A stretch of 64,000 nucleotides of DNA from Halichondria panicea. Lineage: Eukaryota > Porifera > Demospongiae > Suberitida > Halichondriidae. Shown one piece after another: positions 44,617 to 61,854 of this stretch; positions within the stretch are counted from its first letter, which is position 1, and each line of letters opens with the position of its first letter. The notes under the pieces are model-generated. The model worked only from the letters and a program-made list of their open reading frames with translations. It did no database searches and had not been told where the DNA came from. Where the stretch lies: contig NC_087387.1 in NCBI RefSeq assembly GCF_963675165.1, positions 5,358,990-5,422,989 on the forward strand. The letters run 5' to 3'. A program made the position numbers and the translations under genes.

Positions 44617-45630
44617 CTATACTGATAAAAATTATACGCTAAGAGTAAATTTATAGCTATGTGTTATTACGATTAGTACAGCCTGTTTTGTTAAATTTTA
44701 GCAAGTGCACATTTATCCAGTACACATGCACATAATTATTATATCATGCTTCATCATGCACGGCTATACACGAGCGCAAGCAGTGCGTGCGGTTCTTATA
44801 ATAAAGTTGACTTTATACATACGCTAGTGAAAGATTGCTATAGAAGTTAGATACACCAAGCTGCACCAATCAGATTCGCATTATTTGTGTCAAGTTTGTC
44901 TGTAGTTGATACACAAAATACGGCCTGGTATTCTATTGCATAAATGATAGTGCACATGCACAAACTGATTATAAATCTACTCTGTGCATAAGAATATGCT
45001 TGTAATAAATTGTTTTGTAGAACAGACTAATTAATGAATTCATTGTATTGCGGAAGGAGGATGTGAAGGATGTTCACACTGTCAATAATCCATATCAACA
45101 CACAACAGCTGGTCTCCCTATTTATTGCCTATAGCAATGACAGTTGTGGCTTGCCTGCAAAAACTACGACTAGTATGCATGCATGCAGGTATATATAACT
45201 TTGCTGTTTTTATTCAGTATAATTATCTGTTTCATTTCTGCTCGTATATAACTTTATGTTATGTTATCTTATGTAGCTTTGACACATCTACCGAGGCATC
45301 GCCACCCGTGCATGCAGTTCTTTCATTATGATATATTTTATGCAATGAGTGTATAGCTAGTATATAGACAGACAAGCTTAACACAAAGTAATTGCAGCTA
45401 GGTATATTTAGGCTATATAAACCTCAAATCTGGCATGCATATGATTATAGTAGCGAGATATTATAATTACCTAAGTAAATTTTTATGCTTGCACTCATGT
45501 ATATAGCAAAATGACTCAGAGTATAAGAATTATAGAAAACAATGTTTTACCTATGCTGGGAACGTGGTACACTAATAACTCTAACTAACAAGTATCTATT
45601 GACGAGTCTTGCATGCACGTATTAGTTTGC
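44617..45630. other. Tail-to-tail spacer between copies 8 and 9
   Basis: No gene is seen. The last 150 bp (TGCTTGCACTCATGTATA, GTGGTACACTAATAAC) resemble the 3' flank of copy 6 at 25.20-25.30 kb. About 45,150-45,200 is a small dispersed repeat also present near 36,953. Confidence 0.5.
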
Positions 45631-48600
45631 TCAGCTTTCCAGTAATGGCTCTCTTAGAACAGGCTGGTACACTGCTCTCATTTCAATTACACTTTGAGTA
45701 ACTTTCTTACTCTCAAATTTAGTCGGCTTGTTAATTGTTAGCTTTTGTTCTGGCACTTTATCCTTCAACACTGGCAGTTTCTTGAGTCGCCAGTAAATGT
45801 GCACAATTATAATCCCAATAAAAGTTAGCAGTGCTATCGAAATCGATATAAAAGTAGCGATTTCTCTATGAGAGTTGATTGAAAAATTCAGAGAATATGA
45901 GGTAGCTGCTGCAAGCACACCTAGGTTCACCAAGAAGGACATCTCCAGTGTGTCAATCCAACTCTTGTCATATATTCCTCCAGTCACCTTGAACATAGAT
46001 ATAGCAACAATACAGGCCGTAATGATAGCAAGAAGGTTTATATGCTGGTTTTCTCCAAATGCAAATATGGTTAGTAGCATGACTCTCATCAGGAGACTAA
46101 GTCCTGCCCAGTAACGATGGTTGGGTTTGAAAGGGATCAAGTATGCGTGTAGGAAGGGCTGAAGTCTCAATCGTTGAAACATTTTCGAGATAAAATTGCT
46201 TTTCTGCAAAATTTGAGCTGAAAAAAGTGCAAAGGTGTATGGTGCCAGTAGCAATAGGAGAAACACTGATGCGACTATGATAAGAGTCAAATGATCCTCT
46301 GAGGCATAATCAACACTTCCATCATATCTCCACACTCGTGTTCTATTGCTCCCTGGGTTTTTGATGGATGAATAGTAGAAAATATTGATGATATTTTGGG
46401 CTAGTGAGTTGAAAGACAACAAGATTATGGTAGCAAGAACAGCTACAGGGTCGCTGGTACTGAAAAACTTCGATACCCGTACAGAGTATCGGCATAGAAC
46501 AACAATTAGGCCTGCTAGTATCCAGATGTAGACTGGGAATACAAATAGTAGTCCAGTGTATGCAATCTGATTCATGCCGTCGTAGAAACATGTTTCAATT
46601 CCGAAATCGAGGTTCAGCCATGATATAAAGATGATATAGCCACGAAAGAATCCCTCTGGGAAAAACACAGTTTGATTGCTGTTCAAAATGTTTGCGTAGA
46701 AGATGAGTCCATTGATAGTTCCTGAAGCCACTGTGATTTGCGATAGGAAGACCAGAGCAACTACTAGTATTCCAGCCGCTGCAAAAACAACCAATAGTGC
46801 CAAGTATGCATTATCTGAACAGTCCCCACAAACATCTCCACCAAGCATTAAACTAGTGTTCATTTTGCAGCTTCCACACAGTACACCAGACCGATTGTTA
46901 ACACAAATATCATCGTTTGAAAAAGTAAAGTTTTTCTCTGTAACACAGTATCTGTTAGGACAGCTTTCATACCAACTCATTGCTCCTTGATAATTAGGTT
47001 GATTTGCTGGTGCCATCCAATAGCTTTGATATTCGATTTTCTTCAGAAAGACGTCGTCCGTTATCTCACAGCTTTGCAAATACTTACTGATTTCATTGTC
47101 GCAGACACAGCTGGCATTATCTTCGTCAAGTGGAAAACCATTTGGGCATGGCTCAAATATTACATTTAGTTCGAGTGCTTTCTCACCATCCAGAAATGAC
47201 TCGCCCACATTCAATATCAGAACTTCCATATCTGCCTTGGATTTCACAGTGAAGCTTACTTCATTACACTCTTTAGCGCTAACTCTTTGAAGCTTCCCAT
47301 CTGTAGTTAGAGAAGATGTTGTATTGTCATCAGTGTCAATCGATAATAAAGCAGACCGCAAATTCCTTCGAACTGGTTCTGACATATTAATATTCCCATA
47401 AAACTTGAGTGCTCTCACCATCACAGAAAACGGTTTTCCCTTGATTGCAAAGATGTCTATAGGAGGATCATTTCTTGCACAACCTTCTCGTGAATCGTTT
47501 TCACAGAAACAAAACCAATAGCTATCAGATGCAAGAGCAGGTACTGAATTTCCTGAAGCTATTTTAAATGTTTCTTCCAAGTCCTTCAAAGCCGGATACG
47601 TTACCTCCAAATTATCTACGATATCAAAGTTGACATGTACGACACTGCCCCCAGGGTATGCTTTGTTGTGTTGAAATGTGAGAGAAGCGTTAAGATTTCC
47701 AGGGTTGATAGGACCAAACAAACACGTGTTCAGATCATTAATACACTGAACCTGGTCGACAGATGTCCCAATAAAAATGGCACCTCCTTTTACTGCAGAA
47801 TTATTCACAAAACGGAGTTCAGTTTCATTGTAGAGTTCAAGCCGAGACATTTGATCGAGGAAAATTGCACCTCCATTTTTTGCTGAGTTGTTTTCAAATT
47901 TTCCAATTCCGCTAAACCTAACAACAGACGTGAGTATTGCAAATATTGCACCACCGTTTGCATTTTCATATCTATTTTCAAGAAACGTATAATTTCCATT
48001 CAAATTGAGGGTACTTTGTTGAATAGCAACAGCACCCTCTTTGTAGCCATCAGCAACATTGTTATGATAAAAAGTTGAGTTGCCGTTTATATCCAGATCA
48101 GACCTTAGAGTATACAGAACTCCTGCATTCATGGAAAACTCGATTTGACCATTCAAGAGAATTTTAGCAATGTAACCAATAAGAGGAGATTTTGAATTGT
48201 TGATAAACACGATATTACCATTGACTATCATTTCAGATGTATCAACTTTAATGACACGTTTACGAAGAGTGTTATTACAAGCCATTAGGGTTCCGTTGAG
48301 GATGATCAGTTTTGATCCTTCTGCTAGTGACATCACTCCAGCTCCGTGATTACCATTCAGAAGTAGAGTTGATCCCTCCATTAAAGATATATTAGAGCTC
48401 ACAGAATGAATTGATGTAATATAACCTTCGTTTGAGATTGATTCAATTGTCCCATTTATATTTACCTGACTGTTTTTGAAATATAGTCCAGCAGTGAATT
48501 TTTCATTTTCACTGATCTCCTTATTTTCAATGGAGGATAGAGTCCCCTGAAATTCAATGTTCACCTCACTCAGGAATAATGAACCACCTAGACAGACAAG

Positions 48601-49383
48601 GTTTCGTTCAAATGACCAGTCTCCATTCACAACTGCCTCAACGTTACTCAAGGCCATTACACCAAACGGTCCAACATTATCAGTCACATAAATACTCTCA
48701 GCTGTTAGGACACCACCATCGATTCTAAACACCACCTCTTCTGCATTAGGAAAGCTGCTGTAGATACACTCAGAATCATATTCTCCAATACTGTTTTTAA
48801 AGATGCTGAGGTTATTTAAACTTGTAACAGTTGAGTTTTGTATGATGACGATCGTAGCAAGTGAGTTTTTGTTAATGGTAATCGCAAGGTTAGTGAGCTC
48901 AACATTTGAGCTGTCTTTAATGTAGAGAGCACCAGAGGTGGTGTTAGCTACACTGATGTCCATCATCTTCACTGTGTTGATGTTGGTCAATCTGATACCA
49001 GGAAAATCACCTTCACCGCACGAAACAAAAACCACATTCTGAATAGTTACGCTTGTCAAACCATTGAACGATAAAGTGGCATTTTGTCGACAGTAGATGG
49101 TGGTATTTTCAGTTCCGTTTAGAGAGAAGCTCTCAGTGATGGTACCATTTAGTGAAAAGTCTGAATCGAGATAATATTTACCAGGAGTTAGTATAAAATT
49201 GGAAGGGAGGTCACTACTTGTACTGAGTGCGTACTCAGACAAAGTCTGACAGTCGGGGAACTGGTAGGAACAGGAGCACTCTTGTGGGCAGCTGTCGGGT
49301 TTGACGTGAATCAGTTGCTCTTGGGCATCGCAAATAATCAGAATTGTTAGGAGAAAAAAGACTTTCAATCTTGTTGAAGCCAT
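45631..49383 (-). CDS. Copy 9: beta-helix/multi-TM surface receptor-like protein (intact)
   Basis: An uninterrupted 1250-residue frame from MASTRLKV with a signal peptide FFLLTILIICDA. It is closest to copies 6 and 7: RVSAKECNEVSFTVKSK, ALELNVIFE, and a tail INKPTKFESKKV ending LREPLLES without QIH. The ectodomain has GGAIFAI, NGGAIFLDQ and KGGAIFIG repeats. The Cys-rich module and the FGIETCFYDGMNQ membrane motif are intact. Its upstream flank (49,384-50,043) was duplicated to copy 7 and reaches into the last exon of the neighbouring Bcl-2-like gene. CTCTTAG/AA just before the ATG is again acceptor-like. It is the array member closest to single-copy genes and may mark the old array edge. Confidence 0.9.
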   Translation of the reverse strand: MASTRLKVFFLLTILIICDAQEQLIHVKPDSCPQECSCSYQFPDCQTLSEYALSTSSDLPSNFILTPGKYYLDSDFSLNGTITESFSLNGTENTTIYCRQNATLSFNGLTSVTIQNVVFVSCGEGDFPGIRLTNINTVKMMDISVANTTSGALYIKDSSNVELTNLAITINKNSLATIVIIQNSTVTSLNNLSIFKNSIGEYDSECIYSSFPNAEEVVFRIDGGVLTAESIYVTDNVGPFGVMALSNVEAVVNGDWSFERNLVCLGGSLFLSEVNIEFQGTLSSIENKEISENEKFTAGLYFKNSQVNINGTIESISNEGYITSIHSVSSNISLMEGSTLLLNGNHGAGVMSLAEGSKLIILNGTLMACNNTLRKRVIKVDTSEMIVNGNIVFINNSKSPLIGYIAKILLNGQIEFSMNAGVLYTLRSDLDINGNSTFYHNNVADGYKEGAVAIQQSTLNLNGNYTFLENRYENANGGAIFAILTSVVRFSGIGKFENNSAKNGGAIFLDQMSRLELYNETELRFVNNSAVKGGAIFIGTSVDQVQCINDLNTCLFGPINPGNLNASLTFQHNKAYPGGSVVHVNFDIVDNLEVTYPALKDLEETFKIASGNSVPALASDSYWFCFCENDSREGCARNDPPIDIFAIKGKPFSVMVRALKFYGNINMSEPVRRNLRSALLSIDTDDNTTSSLTTDGKLQRVSAKECNEVSFTVKSKADMEVLILNVGESFLDGEKALELNVIFEPCPNGFPLDEDNASCVCDNEISKYLQSCEITDDVFLKKIEYQSYWMAPANQPNYQGAMSWYESCPNRYCVTEKNFTFSNDDICVNNRSGVLCGSCKMNTSLMLGGDVCGDCSDNAYLALLVVFAAAGILVVALVFLSQITVASGTINGLIFYANILNSNQTVFFPEGFFRGYIIFISWLNLDFGIETCFYDGMNQIAYTGLLFVFPVYIWILAGLIVVLCRYSVRVSKFFSTSDPVAVLATIILLSFNSLAQNIINIFYYSSIKNPGSNRTRVWRYDGSVDYASEDHLTLIIVASVFLLLLLAPYTFALFSAQILQKSNFISKMFQRLRLQPFLHAYLIPFKPNHRYWAGLSLLMRVMLLTIFAFGENQHINLLAIITACIVAISMFKVTGGIYDKSWIDTLEMSFLVNLGVLAAATSYSLNFSINSHREIATFISISIALLTFIGIIIVHIYWRLKKLPVLKDKVPEQKLTINKPTKFESKKVTQSVIEMRAVYQPVLREPLLES

Positions 49384-49964
49384 GTTCTAAGAGAATGGTA
49401 GAATATAAACTTGGTACTATACATGCATGTATATCACAGTCATGCAATTGCACAATGCCACACATGCATGCAGTATAGGTGTTACAATTAATTTGATATA
49501 GATCTAGCTCGATTTAATTAATAAAAAAGTTTAGATTAAATCTCATGCACTGCATTATAGGCTACAGTATGCATGAGTATATAATATACACCTTATGCAC
49601 ACGTACTGCTAGCTTGTCTGGTCTGAAGTAATAGCAGCTCACCTATATTGTAGATTTAACTATTTAGCCTGCATGATCTAGTAAGTCTAGCTATTGTAAC
49701 TGCTGATGTATAGCTTATTACACTATTTATGGGTTATGTGGGAGGCTTCCTTCATAGTTGAACAATGAATACCATTAGACCTATACCCTCTCCCACACAC
49801 ATCATGCAGAATGGAAGCTGCATCAACAACATGCATCAATCATCACTAGATCACAAGAATTAATATTGCCGTGTTTTAGTGATGTAATCAATTACAACAA
49901 ACTCAGTGAGAGCGAGAATTTGCTAGCCTAATAATAAGTTGACCCCAAAAAACCAAAAAAATTG
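49384..49964. other. Spacer between copy 9 and the Bcl-2-like gene
   Basis: It holds the upstream flank of copy 9 and the 3' flank of the Bcl-2-like gene. A donor-like ATATAG/GTGAGC (minus strand, about 49,640) could pair with the acceptor before the copy 9 ATG. The empty site ATCACAGTC for the foldback element is at about 49,432-49,440. No separate gene is seen. Confidence 0.5.
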
Positions 49965-51407
49965 CTATTTTCGTCTATAATAATAGAGTCCCAGAGCTCC
50001 TACAATCCCAACAGCAATGACACCAGCTATTATTGGAGCAGCTAGAGAGTGTGTTTGTGAGACAGTCTGAACACTAGGTTGGTCCTCACTGGGGGGTCCA
50101 TTGAGGGTACCTCTTCTAGAGTGAGCTGGTGTGTCGAAGTGGAGGTCCAGGTACTGGCCATTGGGTACATCTGTGAAGAGGAAAACAGTTCAACTGACAG
50201 TGTTCAGGACATGGCCATGCTATACTAACTAATAATACAGCATAATTATTAAGTCACTGTTCACCTGAAAGCCACCTCAACATGTTAAGGTACTGTACAC
50301 CCTGATGAATTTACTTAAGGAAACTATTAATTTTAGAGGAAGGGATAAGCTAAATTAAGTCACTCGACATGTTAGGTACATCCAAGTAAACAGATGAATT
50401 AACTTAAAGGGGAACTTGAGAGGGCCTAACAGTTACATATAAGTGGTCGCATTATTTTGGGGATGCTATCAAACTGCTGTCTAAAGAGGTACACTAAAAC
50501 TCACTGGGATGCAATCCAGGCCGACCGTTGCCAGGCAACACCACCCCACCCCCCGTGAGGTCGACGCCCACCAGCCGAATTGTTGATGCATTAGAGCACA
50601 CAGACGCAACCGAACCTCTCCTACTGTATCGGAGGCTGCGCTCCTCGAAATTTATTTCTTCTTGACGAAACTGTTCTGACACCAACTTTGTTGGACTTGG
50701 ACTTAGAACATTGGAATTGAGTATTCGGTGCTGGCATTGAATTGAGCTCACTTCAATGGATCCTGCTGATAGACTTCTAGTTAGCGAGCGTTTTCGGTCA
50801 CGGGGGTTGTCATGGAGACTGTTCTGGGCGTGCTCAGTAGAGTCGGCTTCTGTGAACAACACTTCGACGCTGATTACACGCCGTAAGCGGTTTAGAGTTG
50901 GTCGTGGTTGAAAAGACTGCTGATCATGTAAACACGTTTGTGGAGGGGTTATTTGGATGATGTTGGGATGGTTCGGTAAAGGGTCATCAAAGGAATTGGC
51001 TTGATGTGTAGAAGACGGGGTTGGATCATCATACATGTTCTGTGTGTGTTGTGTGTAGCATGTAAAACTTACATAAGGCATAATGTTGTTACAAGTACGC
51101 TATTAGATCGGAGATTGATAATTCTAAAACAGTTATGATAATCGGTATAATTATATCCACAGTTACAGCATCATTATTAGTGACTATCGAAGAGCTACAT
51201 GCAAAACGGCTAAGTACGGGCACTTAAAGTTACCTCCCAAAACTGGCCATTGAATACTCAGAGTTAGCAGTTGGCGTAGCTGGTAAAAACCGTATACACA
51301 CACAACAAGTGCACTCACCAGACCAATGCTGAAGCCAGTGTCCGGATAATCCTCGTAGTCCATATGTGGTGTGGTCTCAACCTGTTCATAGCACTCCACC
51401 AACCGAC

Positions 51408-51441
<34 letters not shown>

Positions 51442-54400
51442 TGGGGGGGGGGTACAATCGGATTTAAACAGCATACCAGTATGTGTACTAACTACGTACT
51501 GCATACAAACTGTTCGTAGGCTTTCAATGCCAAACATGTAAATTTAGATACAGCCTACATACATGTAAATAGTTACAACTGTAACACACACTGTTGCCGG
51601 GCTCAGAAAAATCTCGCTAAAAATCGGTTTGTTGACTGTAAAAAAATTACTATTGTATACATCACACACTCACACCCACGCATACATTCACACACCCATA
51701 CACATACTCACCCACCCACCCACGCACACACCCACTCACCCATCCTCCAATGCCGAGCAGGTAGTCAGAGGCGTATGCATCCACCACTAAATGTGTGAAG
51801 TCATTCACTCTATCACCGAGATTAGGCAGCATCTCCGCAAGTCTGCGACCGAAACAAGTTATCAAAAATATGCTATCTTGTATTTTCTGTCCTTCGACTA
51901 AGAGATGTTTCGAAGCATTGCTGAAACTTTCGTACGATACAGCGTTGCTCAAACTCTGCAAAGCTGCCGGAGTTTTGATCGTCTCCCAAAACATATCATC
52001 CATAGCTCTGTTTAGTTGATTATCGTACTGTTGGTCGATTCGGTCACCGATTGTTCGTAATTTGTAGCTGATATAATCACTCTTGGTTGGTTCGTTATCG
52101 AGCTTCTTAATAAATTGCAAAAACAACGGATCTCTAAATGCGTGAGCTGGTATGCCATTTCTGGGTTCCATATCTGGTGCCGGTATGCAGTGTCCCAGTT
52201 CCATACTTAGAGAGGGTTCCAATACTTGATTCACACGTCTACTACACGAATGTCTTGTTGTGATTTGAGTTTGAGTTTCAACTACTTCCAATCTGCCACT
52301 TTCAGAAGGCACAAAATCAACAAAATCAGTTGATATTTGCCGCGTGTACGTGCTCACTAGTGTGGAGTTTGAGGTAACCTCTTCAACTTCTTGTTTATTT
52401 AGTGATAAATTCTGGTGAGTTGCACGTTCAAAATCCACAGAGAAAGGGTTAACCTCGACGGTGGCGGGTGTGTAGTAGCCACGCGGTGTAGGTCGATCAC
52501 AGAGTGGAGCTTGAGAGTTAAATATTTGCGGAGTAGAAAAATATCGTTTCCGTGGTAGTGCTGTTGGTGAGGTCTTATCGACAGTAGTTCGATTATTGTC
52601 GTGACTATAACTCTTTTTCTGAGATCTAGGAGCTGGTAGATCAGCTACGCGATCATTGCCTTCGTTGTGTTGCGATTCAACCGAATGTGGCGATTCCAAA
52701 TCATCATCATCTTTATTATCCAAAGCATCGCCATCTTCACATACTCTGAAACAGTTACTTTGTTTGTCTGTAGACTTCTCACTTCTCACGTTGTCATCTC
52801 CGTCACTAAAAGTACCCGATTCTGATTCTGACATGTATCCATCTTCATCATTTTGTTCAATCTCTTTGAGCGTAGTTACTGGGGGTGGCAAATAGGTCAT
52901 GTGATCGTCATGTGATGAGAATCCATTGCCTATGTAACTGCCTTCGCTTTGTACTTCTTCGTTGGCCATTAGTAATAGTTCAGTTTTATCGTCAATTGAT
53001 TCTGTCTGGGAAGATGATTGCTGTCTCAGCGTTGGTAATGGTGGTCCGCTAGCTACCTCCAGATCATGTGAGGCGTCCTGAAGATCATGTGATTTCACAG
53101 GCATGTCATGTGACCCGCTGGATGGTAGAGGGGGCCAGTTTGCACTCACACCAGGTGGTGACGTCAACTGTTGTGTTTGTTGTTTGGGAGGGTTTCTTGG
53201 TATATGAAGTCTCCTCTTTGTATGACTGACGTCGTTTAGTACTTGCTCTTCAAGAGCTTTTGTGCTGAGTTTATGAGTGGAATAGAGTTTTCTTCTCTCG
53301 GCCGATTTCTTTCTCGGTTTAACGTGAACATCATCCATAAGATCATCGAGGCTAGAGCTGGCATGTCGTGTCATGCGTGACTTTCGCTTGCCAGTTTTAG
53401 TAATACCACCTTTGAGTTTCCGGCCAAGACTTGACAGCTTGCTGGTGGAGGGTGGATGGTCGTCTTCACTCCGCTTCTTGCTTCGTAAAGAGGCGGTCAA
53501 CTTATTCTTCAACACTGAAGCTTTGGAGAGCATTTTCACTTTGATGGAGTGTTTTTTTGGCATGGTATCACTACTGGATCTGTGAGGCATATCTCGGTCT
53601 ACTGGAGGAGCATACGGAAAGTTCTTCACATTTGCTTTTTTGATCTCAATAGCTTGTATACTTTGTATCTGTGTTGAATTTAGTCTCTGCAAAACACGGC
53701 GATTTTTGGACGGATCTCTGAGGAAATTATTGATATACATTTGACTCTCTTGTCGTACGAACTCTGCACTCCGCACGTCATCTTCTCCCTCGCCCGTTAT
53801 CAGTATACTACTGCTTCCAGCTCTCTGTTTTGAAGTTGGATTGACGTAGAGACGATGGTTAAACATCCGATGTCCGCTGGATTTCATTCGACGATCGGCA
53901 AGTTTCTTTTGAACGATACGACGTCTTCGTAAAGTGTCCAGTTCTTCGTTTTGCGATTCTTTCATAGCTTTTAATCGATCCAATTTCTGCTGATCCGATC
54001 TCTGTTGATAACGTAGCTCTTCACTTGGACGACGTTTCTTCGTCTCTTGATTTTCGTCTTCTTGTAAAGTGGGTGTGTCTTTATGTCCCAGAGACAGGGG
54101 CTTATCACCGAGTGGTCCCGTGACAATCTTTGAGAGGAGGTTTCGTGCTAGCTTGGTTCCAATAGGGTTATAAATCACTTCTCTAACCTGTGGTAGTATA
54201 AACGCAAAGTATATAATTTGATCTCACATGTAAATGGACTTTAATAGTTATCATCAGTTGAAATTATACGTGGTATAGCCTTACATGTACGTGTACACGG
54301 CAACCAAGGAGTCAACTACACCAGTGGTCACATGGAATTGTGGCACAACATACATGTACCGTGACCGTGACAGTTACAATGAGGTGAATGAACATGTGAC

Positions 54401-54470
54401 TACTTACACCGTGACATTTATAAAGATATTGTTGTTCTATAGCCTTTGATATGTATTGAGGATAATCCAT
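49965..54470 (-). CDS. Bcl-2 family protein with very long N-terminal extension (5 exons)
   Basis: Predicted exons (minus strand) are 54,470-54,408, 54,187-51,740, 51,408-51,319, 51,039-50,505 and 50,170-49,965. All introns are GT-AG with GTAAGT or GTGAGT donors and phases fit, giving 1113 residues from MDYPQYISKAIEQQ. Residues about 705-850 look like a Bcl-2 core: BH3-like LRTIGDRID (about 731-739), a BH1-like stretch with ITCFGRRLAEM, and BH2-like GGWGRLVECYE (about 835-845), comparable to GGWDAFVELYG of Bcl-2. An intron falls directly after the GGW codon, where Bcl-2 genes are known to be split. The C-terminus (IAGVIAVGIVGALGLYYYRRK*) is a tail anchor. About 700 basic and Ser-rich, probably disordered residues precede the core, with a coiled-coil-like segment near 75-125. 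A linker of about 240 residues separates BH2 from the anchor. It probably acts at mitochondrial or ER membranes; pro- or anti-death activity cannot be told. Confidence 0.8.
51411..51439. repeat. (GT)n microsatellite in a Bcl-2-like gene intron
   Basis: A GT run directly next to the acceptor of exon 3, followed by a G run. On the gene strand it makes a CA-rich tract ending in CAG. Confidence 0.95.
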
Positions 54471-55272
54471 CAAAGAGTTCAAAGAGATAATTTCCCAAAG
54501 GTAGACAAAACGAAAACTAAAAAGCCCAAACAAACCCATAGCTACAGCTACGTAGAGCTACAGTATTCCCAAGTAACAGTGTACTGTGACGTCATGATAG
54601 GCTAACTGTACTGGCTAGCTAAAACAGATTAATCATCACTCAGTGTTATTATTATTATAAACAATACGCCAGTAAACTACATTATGGTGGCTAGAGCTAG
54701 GGGTGTAGCAACGTGCCTTGTTCATCCGTCCCACACAATCCAACTCTTGTCTACACTGCATATCCAGTCTCTCGTCCATCATAGTCTCCATAGCGTCCAC
54801 CCCATCACTACCAACTCCATGCACCTCCACTGACATAGCAGCTTCACTGCTTTGGAAGTCGGTATTTTCAGTTGGAGTTCTTTCTTGAGATTCAGCGGTA
54901 GTCCAGACCTTGTAGCTTGTGTAGACCACAGCGATGCTTTGACATAAAAGCACTTACGGTGGTAGCTTGTTTATTATTGTAAAAGTACAAGAGATAAACA
55001 AACCTTGCTCTGTAAAAGGGGAAAATCCCCAGTTTATGCCGTCATATTTGTGCACTGAAAGAGGGTGGGGCTGTTTTTTTTTTTTTGCAACTGTTACAGT
55101 GACGTCATCAACGTCGCCATTTATACATTGATCTCGGGGTCAAGCCGCGGATTGCAAGCAGGTGCATTCACAGTATAGTAGTAGATCTACAGCTACACAG
55201 TACAGTACAGGTTCGTATTTAATTTCTTTATCATAGTTTCTCTGAGCATAGCTACCCTACTAATACACAGTC
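54471..55272. other. Divergent intergenic region between the Bcl-2-like and TPX2-C-like genes
   Basis: The two genes are transcribed away from each other, so this interval should hold both promoters. A minus-strand open frame at 54,636-54,953 (with MSVEVHGVGSDGVDAMETMM and a GTG rather than ATG at its head) may be an exon or chance; no homology was recognised. A T run lies near 55,073-55,086. Confidence 0.45.
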
Positions 55273-57951
55273 ATGAGTTCTATGGAGAGGAAAGGATCTA
55301 TATCCTCCACTTGCTCTGACTCGAGTGCGGAGGAGACAAGAGACGGCGTTGGAAAGAAGATAAAGGCAAGTTACAGCATGTATCCACATGCTACAAGATC
55401 GTGCTGCATGTAACGTAGACCTTCTGTGACAGGTAGCCAGCTGATGTAAGTTAGTTCTATTTCATAGACTATGCTCTCAAAGACTCATTAGCTGGCTTTA
55501 TGCTATCATATCTTATCATATCATGTACGTCTAGTCTAGCTAGCTATGGTCTTTGATTGGAATCATTGAGCACGACCAGCTGATTATTCACAGCACGGAG
55601 CACATGCATTCACTCACCCACACCACCCACACACACACAGATCCCAGTCACAGTACCCAAGCCCTTCAGTTTCACACTCTACTCGCGACTACAACAACGT
55701 CGAGATTTTGACGATGATCTAAGAAAAAGACAGCATGCTGCCGAGGAGAGAGACAGAATATCCCGAGAACGACAAGAGAGGGAAGAAGAACTAGAGCTCA
55801 AGAAATACAGGAAATCCCTCAACTTTAAAGTATGTCCAGTGGAGGCTAGCATCGTTAACAGCTTCATTGTTTTATAACTCTAGCTTCAAGTGTTAATTGA
55901 CTTCCACTGAGTGCACTTGTATTCTCACATGGATGCTCATTTTGTGTATAGGCCTTTTTACTTTACCGGCAGGTGCTTTAATATCCTGTGGCATTTCCTG
56001 TTAACGTCAACAGTTAGTGTACACCAGATAGTCGTGATAGACCAAGCACTAATCTCTTATGCTGTGGCCTACTAGGTTAAACATAGCACATGTGTACGTT
56101 GATTACCACAAAGTTATTCTCTGAATAAACATACTAAGTATCGATGTGTGGTTTTACTTGCAACGCTGTGTTTCTTGGCCATACATAAATATTAAAGCTT
56201 GATGGTGTGTGAGTGTACGTGTGTGCGTGTGCGTGCGGTTTACTTTATATTGTGTACTTAAGTTCTTTATTGAGTTAATTGTGTCTCTTGATAAACTATC
56301 AATGTTATTTGTTTGCACTTGCACAGCATTCGGCCCCCACTGTCTAAACATGTAACCTACACATGTGGCTAAAAATAATAGTGCCCATAGAAGCAATGTC
56401 TCTGTTCTCCAACTCATGTACTAATTTTTAGAATATAAATATGCATACTTATAAAAGCTTGGTTGGAAATTGCAAATTTATGAGGTTTGGCTGAAGTTCA
56501 GAGGGACTGATTTGCTTTAATTAAGTACCCTCTTGAGATAAGTATGTGTGGCTTCACAAGTGGTTGGATGTTTGGCCTTGGAATAATTGATAGGTACCTG
56601 CTTTGTGTACGCATAATTAGAATGATCACATCATTATGCCTCGAGGCGTAGCCGCACGAGGGATACGGTAAAGCTGACTGTGTGTGTGTCTGTGTGTCTG
56701 TGATCACATCATTTTAGATTATCAATCAGTTGAAGTGTGAGATTGTTTATGAGGTTAAGTACAGTATACCTCATAGTAGTGTGAGATTGTTATGATGTGT
56801 TAGGTTAAGTACAGTATACTTCATAGTGTACCTGTTTTTTTGTGATTCTTTCCTTTCCTGTATATAGTCTAACTTCATTCAGTGCCCCAGCCATCATTGC
56901 ATTCAACAAGCCAACACTTGTCCTGAGGTTGTGTCTATAATTCATTAGCAAACCTCTACACATGTTTTTTCATTACAATTGTGGTCCAAGAACATTGTTT
57001 AAAATGTAAAATGTATGTTTAGCTAGTCACATGTGTGGTAGTAAAGTACACCTTTCAACTGTACACACCCTAATAGCCACTCATACGTATTATTTTTTAG
57101 AGGTTATAATTATATCATGTAATTATGTGGTATAGGTGTACCAGTATTCACTAAGAGCCCATACATTTTCCAATTTCAAAATGAAAGGAGGATTCATTTT
57201 GTAGCTCTTATGGAGGCCATCACATGGTGTGTTTACCTAGTAATGATTTTGAGTGTACAGTATTGAAACAACTATTAATAGCTCTGGTAGTTAGACGGCC
57301 AAGCCCTATACGGTGTCAACTAGCACCATCTCCATTGCTAAGTACATTAATAGAAACTTGTCCCCTTGCGTTGCCAGATGTCACTATCTCCTAATTACTG
57401 CAACAAAAACTGTACCCATACAAGTGATATCTGTGACTGTGTGTCTCTATAGAAGTTCCCCTTAACAGTTCCTTCAATGGTGGTCACTAATGAACATGTA
57501 GTGTCATTGTCCAGTGCTGTAACATAATTACAGTACATGAAGTACTGTGCATATGTTCTCTAGCATTATCAAAATTTGGGCTAAACAGTAATTAGTTGGT
57601 TGTAGTCGTGTGTATAAGGTCTGTTGTGTTTACTTGCACTTCACTGGCTTCTGTTTACCAATCGTTAATTTGCAAAATCAATTATTGATACTCTGTCATT
57701 TTACACTATTCAACTATGCCCCTCCCCTCCCCTCCCCTCCCCTGTAGGCCAACCCGATTCGGAGTTACTCTGGCATCTACCCGAATCCGAGTGAAAAGGA
57801 ATTGACGATACCACAAGGACCTCGACTACTGACTGAGAATCGATTACGCACAAATCCCGAGGATAACCCCCGGGCCGATTCTCGAGGGAGCAGCGATCAC
57901 AGTGACATTGTGTATTCAACTTATTCGTATAATGGACCCACTGTACTTTGA
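55273..57951 (+). CDS. TPX2 C-terminal/FAM161-like small protein (3 exons)
   Basis: Predicted exons 55,273-55,365, 55,641-55,829 and 57,748-57,951, all phase 0, give 161 residues. Exon 1 (MSSMERKGSISS) ends AAG/GCAAGT, a GC-AG type donor with otherwise perfect consensus; in-frame read-through meets a stop. Exon 2 encodes IPVTVPKPFSFTLYSRLQ followed by a highly charged helix with RKRQHAAEERDR and LKKYRKSLNFK, and exon 3 opens ANPIRSYSGIYP. The order KPFxF, charged helix, FKANPI resembles the TPX2 C-terminal microtubule-binding module; FAM161-type proteins have a similar motif. A spindle, cilium or microtubule role is inference. Intron 2 has a (CCCCT)n tract before its acceptor and hosts a dispersed repeat. 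An AATAAA lies at 58,313-58,318. Confidence 0.72.
56633..56700 (-). repeat. Dispersed repeat (inverted partner of 38,658-38,738)
   Basis: TTATGCCTCGAGGCGTAGCC, CGCACGAGGGATACGG and AAAGCTGACTGTGTG match the reverse complement of 38,658-38,738. It lies inside intron 2 of the TPX2-C-like gene. Confidence 0.9.
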
Positions 57952-59018: not shown

Positions 59019-61854
59019 CTAGTGTGTAATAGACGGGATTGATGTGTACACAGTTCTGACACCATAGCTACCTCTTACACCACCAAGTATATACAGTTTT
59101 CCAGATAGTTCAATGCAAGAACAACAATACAATTTCCTGGGAAGGTCACCACATTGTGTCCACTGGTCTTTGGTGGGATCGTACAGATGGATGCTTGAGA
59201 TACCGTTACCCCCTCGCACATTATCACTCCCCCCCACAGTCAGGAGGGTGTTGCCGATGGCGATGGGAGATGACCGATAGAATGGCACGTTTGCGACAGA
59301 TTTCCACACACCAAAACTAGCTCCTGATATCAGGGAGGGTACATGAGCTCGAAACACTTCTTTAGTGAGTTGACGTACGAGATACAGTGTGTCTCCAATT
59401 AGGCAAGTTCTGTGGTGATTATTAGTGTTGGGAAGTGGCTCAGCTGTGATCCATTTGTTACTAGTGGTGTCCAGAATGTTCACTTCAGCTATCTTACGGT
59501 CATTTGTGCCATATCCACCGATAACGATAAGATTGTTTTGATATGCAACAACTTCCGGCAAAGATAATGCTATTGGCATGGGGGGAAGTAACTTGACCCA
59601 TTGTCGAGACCTCTCATGGAATGTTAGGATGGTATTCTCTTTCTCTTTAGTAGACTTTTCCTGACCTCCGACCACTAGCAGTTGACCTCTCAGTGTTGCT
59701 ACGGTGAACCATATCACAGACAGTGGAGGACATCGCAGCTCATTCCAGCTCTCCTGATCTGGTGTGTACATTAGCAAAATGTCAGTCCAGTTATTCATGC
59801 CTCTCATGTACGCCTTCCCGTTGATAGCCACAGGATGATCGAGCACATTTATCCCCTCTGGTATGTCCTTGCATGTTTTCCAGTTGAAGGTAATGGCAGT
59901 AGGAACAGTTGGTTGTGGTGTGGTCGATTTGTGTGGTAGCAATGCGTTTCCAGCGCTCAAATGAACAATCTTGATTCCTTTTGTGCTTTTGTTTGTGGTT
60001 GTCTGTAAATAAAGTGAACATTATAATTATGTCATGGATCAAGTTTGTCAGAGTGGTGGTATATTGTGCATTTGTTGTTGCCATCTCAACCCATACCCCA
60101 CTACATGACACCACCACCCTTTTTGTGGGCATATATTTCTTATCAAGCTTATATAGGCAACGTCATGATATTAAGACATTTTGAGGCACAACTATAATTA
60201 TTATGCCGGCAATATCCCCTCACACAGTCACCCACCTCTCTCTGTCCTGAGCGCTGAGGTGTGTCCTGCCGAGGCTGTATCTGTAGAGACCCCACTGAAC
60301 TGGAGAGACGATAAATTTCTCTACGTTGAGCATCTAACTGCTCTTGTTGGAGAGTGGTCAGTTCTTCCAGTCCACGCACTTGCTCTCGTTTCTCAGCTTG
60401 AAGACGATCGATAGTTGCTTGTAATCGAGTGTCTTTCACAGAGATTTGATGTAAAATATGATTTACTTGACCTGACATTTCAAAATTTTCTCTCTGAAGT
60501 TGATTGATTACAACATCTCTTTGTTCGATTTCTTCCAAATGTAGTACTTTGATCGCATCAATTTGAGCTTGTTTCTCATCGGCAACTCTTTCAGCAACTT
60601 GCTGTATCTTTTCTTCCTTCACAGCCACCTGTTGAATCAGTTCCAGCTTGGTCTGGGTGCAGTTCTGAGGGAGTGTTGTTCCAACCTCCTCCAATCCTCT
60701 CAACACCACCACAGCAGATGGTCGATCTTCTTGATCAAACTCTAGGCAATTGAGGGTCAACTGGACTAGGGGGTGGGTCTCACCAAGAGCTGCTTTCGCT
60801 GGTTGGATATAATGTTCACGGCGCTCGATTTCTGACCGAGCAACCAGCCTTCGAGTAGCAGGATCTCGATATGTTGCAGGTTTGAGATCTTTGGGGAAGG
60901 TTTGTGTCAGTGTGAACAGAGATACTACACCAAAGGAGAAAATGTCTATGGCAGTGTTGTATCGTGTGACCCCTTCCTCTTGAGCTGCCTCTGGTGGCAT
61001 GTACACACCAGTGCCTGGCATTTGAGTCATCGAGGCAGCTAGCCGACCAGGCTGAATGTTCACAATCCTAGAAACACCCAAGTCTGCTATCTTGGCATTG
61101 AGACCATTATCAACTAGAACGTTCTTGGCAGACAGATCACGATGGGCAATGGGTGGAGTGCGGCTGTGCAGATAGACCACCCCTCGGCCAGTCCCCGTCA
61201 GAAGGTGCACTTTGAGGTCAATAGGAATGTTGGGGCTGGTTTCCAGAAGATTGTCGAGGCTGGTTTGTAGCTTCTCCATCAGTAGGACAGAGAGTTGGGC
61301 TCCAGGGAGATAGCACACCCCCAGGAACTGTACTATGTGAGGGTGACGGAGTTGGCTCATCAGCTTACACTCCTCCACGAAATCAGTCACCCATTTCTCA
61401 ACCTATATGGGTTATAGGCCCATACTATAATTATCAATATAATTATCAGTTGATTGCACTGATGGGGCCATGAGACAGTGGGTGGGTCTACAGTCAGTGA
61501 AGGCATGCAGACTAGCTAGATCTAGCTATAGATAGATGAGGATTGCCACAATGATGGGATGGGATGGGGGACAATATGCAACCAGGGATGGACAGACAGT
61601 AAGTATAGGGAAGTTCGATCAGTAAATTCATTCCTTAGTCTAAAGTGACTAGAAAAACAACAGTGTTGTGCTACCTGCTGTGGAGAGCCCAGGTTGACAA
61701 GCTGTTGGTGCAATTTCTTGGCAGCTACCGTTGCTCCAGGTATCTCTACCTCCTCCACACTGCCATAAGCGCCTGCTCCTAGTACGCGTCCAGTCAACTC
61801 AACTGTAGCAACTGTGAACTGCTCCAACTCCAAAGAAGTAATTCTTGTAGCCAT
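59019..61854 (-). CDS. Protein kinase-coiled coil-Kelch repeat protein (3 exons)
   Basis: Predicted exons (minus strand) are 61,854-61,675, 61,402-60,236 and 60,002-59,019, all GT-AG and phase 0, giving 776 residues from MATRITSLELEQF. The kinase domain (about 18-260) has the glycine loop GAGAYGSV, AAKK for the ATP lysine, HRDLSAKN (147-154), DLG in place of DFG (167-169) and PPEA in place of APE (about 196-199). HRDLSAKN suggests a tyrosine-kinase-like group rather than classical Ser/Thr kinases. Residues about 290-430 are a Gln/Glu-rich coiled coil. Exon 3 supplies a Kelch propeller with VVGGQ, VIGGYG, TVGGSD and LGGVRG blades. No signal peptide or membrane segment is seen, so it is a cytoplasmic kinase with a probable protein-binding propeller. 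Substrates are unknown. Decayed Kelch fragments lie on both sides, suggesting a former tandem family. Confidence 0.87.

Follow-up and report, generated by a model that had tools for sequence, protein, structure and literature searches.

Can a Bcl-2 core sit inside a protein of more than a thousand residues? Members of this family are usually about 200 residues long. The question is raised by a minus-strand gene in a 64,000-nucleotide stretch of the Halichondria panicea genome (contig NC_087387.1, positions 5,358,990 to 5,422,989; hereafter, the window), in which an original prediction, made from the letters alone, had placed a Bcl-2 homologue with an N-terminal extension of roughly 700 residues. 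Here, we rebuilt this gene (54470-49965) from the sequence as five exons with a predicted product of 1113 residues, which reproduced the proposed structure; all four introns are GT-AG and their phases are consistent. The 1,113-residue product is several times the usual size of the family. We favor the reading, which we consider probable though far from assured, that the locus is a single-copy gene for a tail-anchored Bcl-2-family protein of ~1,100 residues, of scaffold or receptor type and with a disordered arm. The sponge Bcl-2 members described in the literature consulted are ordinary multi-motif proteins, and neither a giant Bcl-2 protein nor a sponge BCL2L13 was reported in open-licence PMC titles and abstract openings among the matches listed.

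The long N-terminal part and the core are both carried by a single frame of exon 2 (2448 bases). The open frame of this exon spans 853 codons, compared with a maximum of 225 codons when the window was shuffled 50 times and read on one strand. A codon score, for which two other long window frames served as training data, ranked the true frame best of three in all 16 segments, covering 2400 of the 2448 exon-2 bases, and not one in-frame stop was found among the 680 codons of the extension part of exon 2, where 500 shuffles averaged 38.6 stops and never fell below 23. Given the long open frame, the codon usage of the true frame and the lack of stops, we conclude that the N-terminal extension is protein-coding and continuous with the core, as had been claimed. 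Exon 1 is the least certain part of the model: its frame is open further upstream, where a second in-frame ATG lies 23 codons earlier, at 54539, and a start there would lengthen the N-terminus by 23 residues.

The BH3-like motif LRTIGDRID of the original prediction was recovered and aligned to the family BH3. A custom BH3 pattern matched twice in the protein (0.06 matches expected per shuffled protein), at LRTIGDRID and at a second BH3-like stretch, LPNLGDRVN (residues 808-816). The proposed BH2, GGWGRLVECYE, was likewise confirmed, with GGW and GRLVECYE split by a phase-0 intron exactly after the W. The first residues of exon 3, GRLVECYE, agree with the letters typical of the family in the second half of BH2, and since they continue BH2 after GGW, the splice between exons 2 and 3 is supported from both sides. 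An exon boundary at the GGW tryptophan is described as a feature of the Bcl-2 family, Amphimedon included, in section 6 of PMC8998228, which leaves the phase unstated. In the H. panicea genome, GT directly follows the same tryptophan in all eight fetched Bcl-2 loci (of 17 matched). Contig C3 accounts for six of these as near-identical copies, which leaves about three independent cases; one locus (L007) has KGW. The intron after the GGW tryptophan is the strongest independent sign of Bcl-2 identity, and it depends little on the profile score.

Profile comparisons pointed in the same direction. Searched against Pfam, the 161-residue core reported Bcl-2 (PF00452) as the sole family, over all of the profile (positions 1-100 of 100) at an E-value of 0.041 (14.9 bits); trimmed to 141 residues, it gave 15.4 bits (E-value of 0.028). 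In hhalign, the core matched nine Bcl-2 proteins over 100 columns with a probability of 90 and a P-value of 1.6e-6, while one stretch of the extension, used as a control, gave a probability of 0.1. A hidden Markov model (HMM) of ten other Bcl-2 proteins scored the core at 21.3 bits versus 7.8 bits for the best of 5000 shuffles; with BCL2L13 left out, the score was weaker, at 12.8 bits versus a best of 5.8 in 3000 shuffles. The human sequences in these core homology tests, and the human BCL2L13 sequence used in the searches below, did not come from a database. No relative of the exon-2 core was confirmed among 62 pattern stretches from bacterial and archaeal contigs. With the profile match, BH3, BH2, the family intron position and the terminal anchor all in agreement with the original claim of a Bcl-2 core, we consider the core a divergent Bcl-2 homologue on sequence grounds, the homology being weak but consistent.

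Outside the core, the protein has two further parts. By a FoldIndex-type score of charge and hydropathy, most of residues 47-614 are predicted to be disordered, and residues 1-46 and those around 646-714 lean toward folded; residues 181-360 carry a net charge of +29 and residues 361-540 one of −29. Residues 1-222 had no Pfam match better than an E-value of 0.19 and no match in a sequence search of the PDB at E-values up to 1, and residues 221-704 had no Pfam match at E-values up to 10 and a single weak PDB match, a glycosidase chain (E-value of 0.48). A relative of the extension was not found in the same genome by protein search at E-values up to 1. On the other side of the core, a linker of 221 residues (868-1088), rich in Ser, Pro and Leu and with a net charge of −2, separates BH2 from the anchor. 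The claim of a C-terminal tail anchor was supported: the most hydrophobic 19-residue stretch (tied windows at 1088 and 1089) ends six or seven residues from the C-terminus, and the mean hydropathy of 2.3 over residues 1089-1107 is the maximum of the protein, which ends in YYYRRK. A whole-protein Pfam match to Ldr_toxin over residues 1086-1103 (E-value of 0.0019, below the cut-off) was taken as chance, because a hydrophobic anchor fits a short hydrophobic model.

By a protein search of the 131-Mb genome at E-values up to 1, the gene is single-copy: apart from its own exons, one 42-residue linker fragment on contig C16 was matched. This fragment, rejected as a working paralogue, belongs to a duplicate in which the 3′ end of the gene has decayed.

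The duplicate is segmental, with G000:C16:1064200-1069300 corresponding to about 45600-50940 of the window. It holds a long open copy of the neighboring 1251-residue gene, ending earlier than the version in the window, and, beside it, a decayed copy of exons 4 and 5, which has stops and 74–80% identity in five DNA pieces; the similarity begins within exon 4, at about 50938. Other Bcl-2 loci are arrayed elsewhere in the genome. Specifically, 11 of the 17 PF00452 matches lie on contig C3 (G000:C3:861789-1145388 and 1576619-1623158), two of them partial, with TAA in three matched stretches and TGA in one, and the six loci fetched from this array are near-identical in the matched part. On the contig of the window itself, four further matches, all partial, span about 42 kb (G000:C11:804397-846253).

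How might such a protein work? In the favored reading of a tail-anchored scaffold or receptor, a divergent core that retains BH3 and BH2 and has a degenerate BH1 would sit on a linker of ~220 residues above the C-terminal membrane anchor, which may be sited in the outer mitochondrial membrane, and a mostly disordered arm of ~700 residues would reach into the cytosol. Because the NWGR of BH1 is lost, the protein would probably not act as an ordinary survival protein through a BH3 groove. Instead, its long non-core parts may recruit other proteins to the mitochondrial surface in fission, mitophagy or tethering, as with BCL2L13, and the core may serve as a regulatory or membrane-active module. 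If the protein is built in this way, its combination of a Bcl-2 core with degenerate BH1, a linker like that of Bcl-rambo and an arm of 700 residues would show the reach of the family architecture in early animals, and the antiquity of the non-apoptotic, receptor-like role of BCL2L13 would become testable. More speculatively, and with a good deal less confidence, the gene may represent a distinct early-animal class of the family, in which a long linker would keep a BCL2L13-like, groove-degenerate core at a distance from the mitochondrial membrane and a disordered, basic-then-acidic arm of ~700 residues would extend it, the whole serving as a long-reach mitochondrial tether or recruitment platform and not as a death switch; a scaffold function of the Bcl-2 fold outside apoptosis would then date back to near the root of animals.

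Several observations weigh against this picture. The proposed BH1-like stretch stands as a region, which aligns in hhalign, but not as a normal BH1, as its NWGR is replaced; NWGR is usual but not universal in BH1, and a Trichoplax member that lacks the Gly is described in PMC8998228. The comparison of the core with the family profile was similarly divided: the match covers the full PF00452 profile, but both scores fall below the curated cut-off of 31.4 bits. The whole-protein Pfam search did not return PF00452 at E-values up to 1, and the PF00452 search of the genome (E-values up to 0.001, 17 matches) did not return this gene. A profile of three same-genome relatives alone scored the core at 5.3 bits, less than the best shuffle (8.1 bits). 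The PDB sequence search of the core contained no native Bcl-2 protein among its 20 distinct sequences (E-values up to 10, best 0.038). Several of these are named protein A or affibody, the remaining longer ones look like chains bearing a tag of this type, and the only Bcl-2-type name was that of the chain Sc-apCC-2-MCL-1-3 (E-value of 0.73). The charge and hydropathy score also makes much of core residues 715-758 disordered and leaves the linker borderline (0.011). Finally, a role in mitophagy has no positive motif support, because no strict LC3-interacting region (LIR) pattern was matched in the whole protein (shuffle mean of 1.06) and loose LIR cores were fewer (n = 7) than in shuffles (mean of 11.8), with one, YLDL at 1052, in the linker.

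The closest layout in the family is that of BCL2L13, also known as Bcl-rambo. Human BCL2L13 likewise lacks NWGR in its BH1 and retains GGWG, and both proteins combine a divergent core, a long linker without BH motifs and a C-terminal outer-membrane anchor (putative in the sponge) with a short tail. As described in PMC9800997, BCL2L13 has 485 residues in human and 434 in mouse, its core is separated from its anchor by a linker domain, and in immunoprecipitation it bound none of seven anti-apoptotic and six pro-apoptotic family proteins. The sponge protein differs in having ~700 additional N-terminal residues, in a Ser/Pro/Leu-rich linker where that of BCL2L13 is described as Glu/Ser-rich, and in that no strict LIR motif was found in it. 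It is conceivable, but clearly less probable than the scaffold reading, that the gene is a genuine BCL2L13 orthologue in the sponge, with an N-terminal extension specific to its lineage, and acts as a mitophagy and fission receptor. Trees grouped the two with supports of 78/85 and 66/79, on long branches and with 11 rows each. When human BCL2L13 (residues 1-231) was searched against the genome, none of the nine weak matches at E-values up to 10 was this gene, and eight of them were ordinary Bcl-2 loci. The failed reciprocal search and the weak tree support reduced orthology, once the leading idea, to a resemblance of layout; the original comparison with BCL2L13, through the long linker, stands as such a resemblance. 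Searched against the PDB, human BCL2L13 (residues 1-285) matched Bcl-xL entries only (six at E-values up to 0.01), which means that this search yielded no solved BCL2L13 core.

In a somewhat more doubtful alternative, a canonical regulator of the Bcl-2 or BAK type has acquired a long disordered N-terminus, and its groove continues to bind BH3 ligands. The protein shares BH3, the GGW of BH2 (KGW in L007) and the exon end at the Trp with ordinary sponge Bcl-2 and BAK-like proteins (BHP2, LB-Bak-2, the Amphimedon set and loci L001-L008 of the H. panicea genome). MCL1, which also has a disordered extension before a Bcl-2 core and a terminal anchor, offers a precedent for such a gain on a smaller scale, but in MCL1 the extension is much shorter, BH1 is intact and the anchor is not preceded by a long linker, which is not typical of canonical regulators either. 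In sponge BHP2, the Arg of BH1 makes a conserved ionic contact to the BH3 ligand, according to PMC5386376; because of this contact and the loss of NWGR here, ordinary BH3-groove binding by the core is unlikely. It is improbable that the locus consists of two transcription units, one for a long disordered protein and one for a Bcl-2 protein of ~420–430 residues starting in exon 2. Met codons are present at 683 and 694, and the short product would come near the 485 residues of BCL2L13, but arm and core lie in the same unbroken exon, which has neither a stop nor a change of frame, and a product with the arm alone would require an internal splice or end of its own, for which no specific search was made. 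We give the least credence, and very little of it, to the idea that a helical, tail-anchored protein outside the Bcl-2 family resembles its members by chance. The sub-threshold Pfam score, the missing NWGR, the failure of the three same-genome relatives alone to recognize the core and the PDB search without a native Bcl-2 protein would all fit such a resemblance; against it stand the hhalign P-value, an HMM score that none of the 5000 shuffles approached and, little dependent on any profile score, the family intron at the exact codon.

Table 1. Features of the gene for the 1113-residue protein, in window coordinates
Feature	Position	Strand	Residues	Description
Exon 1	54408..54470	(−)	1-21	From the start codon to the GTAAGT donor; tentative N-terminus
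Exon 2	51740..54187	(−)	22-837	N-terminal extension and Bcl-2 core up to GGW; one open frame
Exon-2 part of N-terminal extension	52133..54187	(−)	22-706	Mostly predicted disordered between 47 and 614
BH3-like motif LRTIGDRID	52034..52060	(−)	731-739	Aligned to family BH3
Degenerate BH1 region LLVEGQKIQDSIFLITCFGRRLAE	51833..51904	(−)	783-806	NWGR lost
GGW codons of BH2	51740..51748	(−)		Phase-0 intron directly after; family-conserved position
Exon 3	51319..51408	(−)	838-867	BH2 second half GRLVECYE, then acidic stretch
Exon 4	50505..51039	(−)		Ser/Pro-rich linker, core to anchor
Exon 5	49965..50170	(−)		Linker end, tail anchor, stop codon
C-terminal hydrophobic anchor LAAPIIAGVIAVGIVGALGLY	49983..50045	(−)	1088-1108	Followed by YYRRK

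The gene has several neighbors in the window. Directly downstream, on the same strand, an uninterrupted open frame of 1251 residues (45631-49386) has a match to a Chlam_PMP-type repeat (E-value of 3.6e-7) and hydrophobic segments toward its C-terminus, and it apparently encodes a large membrane protein. Just upstream, on the opposite (+) strand, a TPX2 domain was matched at 55665-55841 (E-value of 1.3e-9), and a Kelch-repeat open frame occupies 59019-60020 on the (−) strand (Kelch_1, E-value of 7.3e-21).
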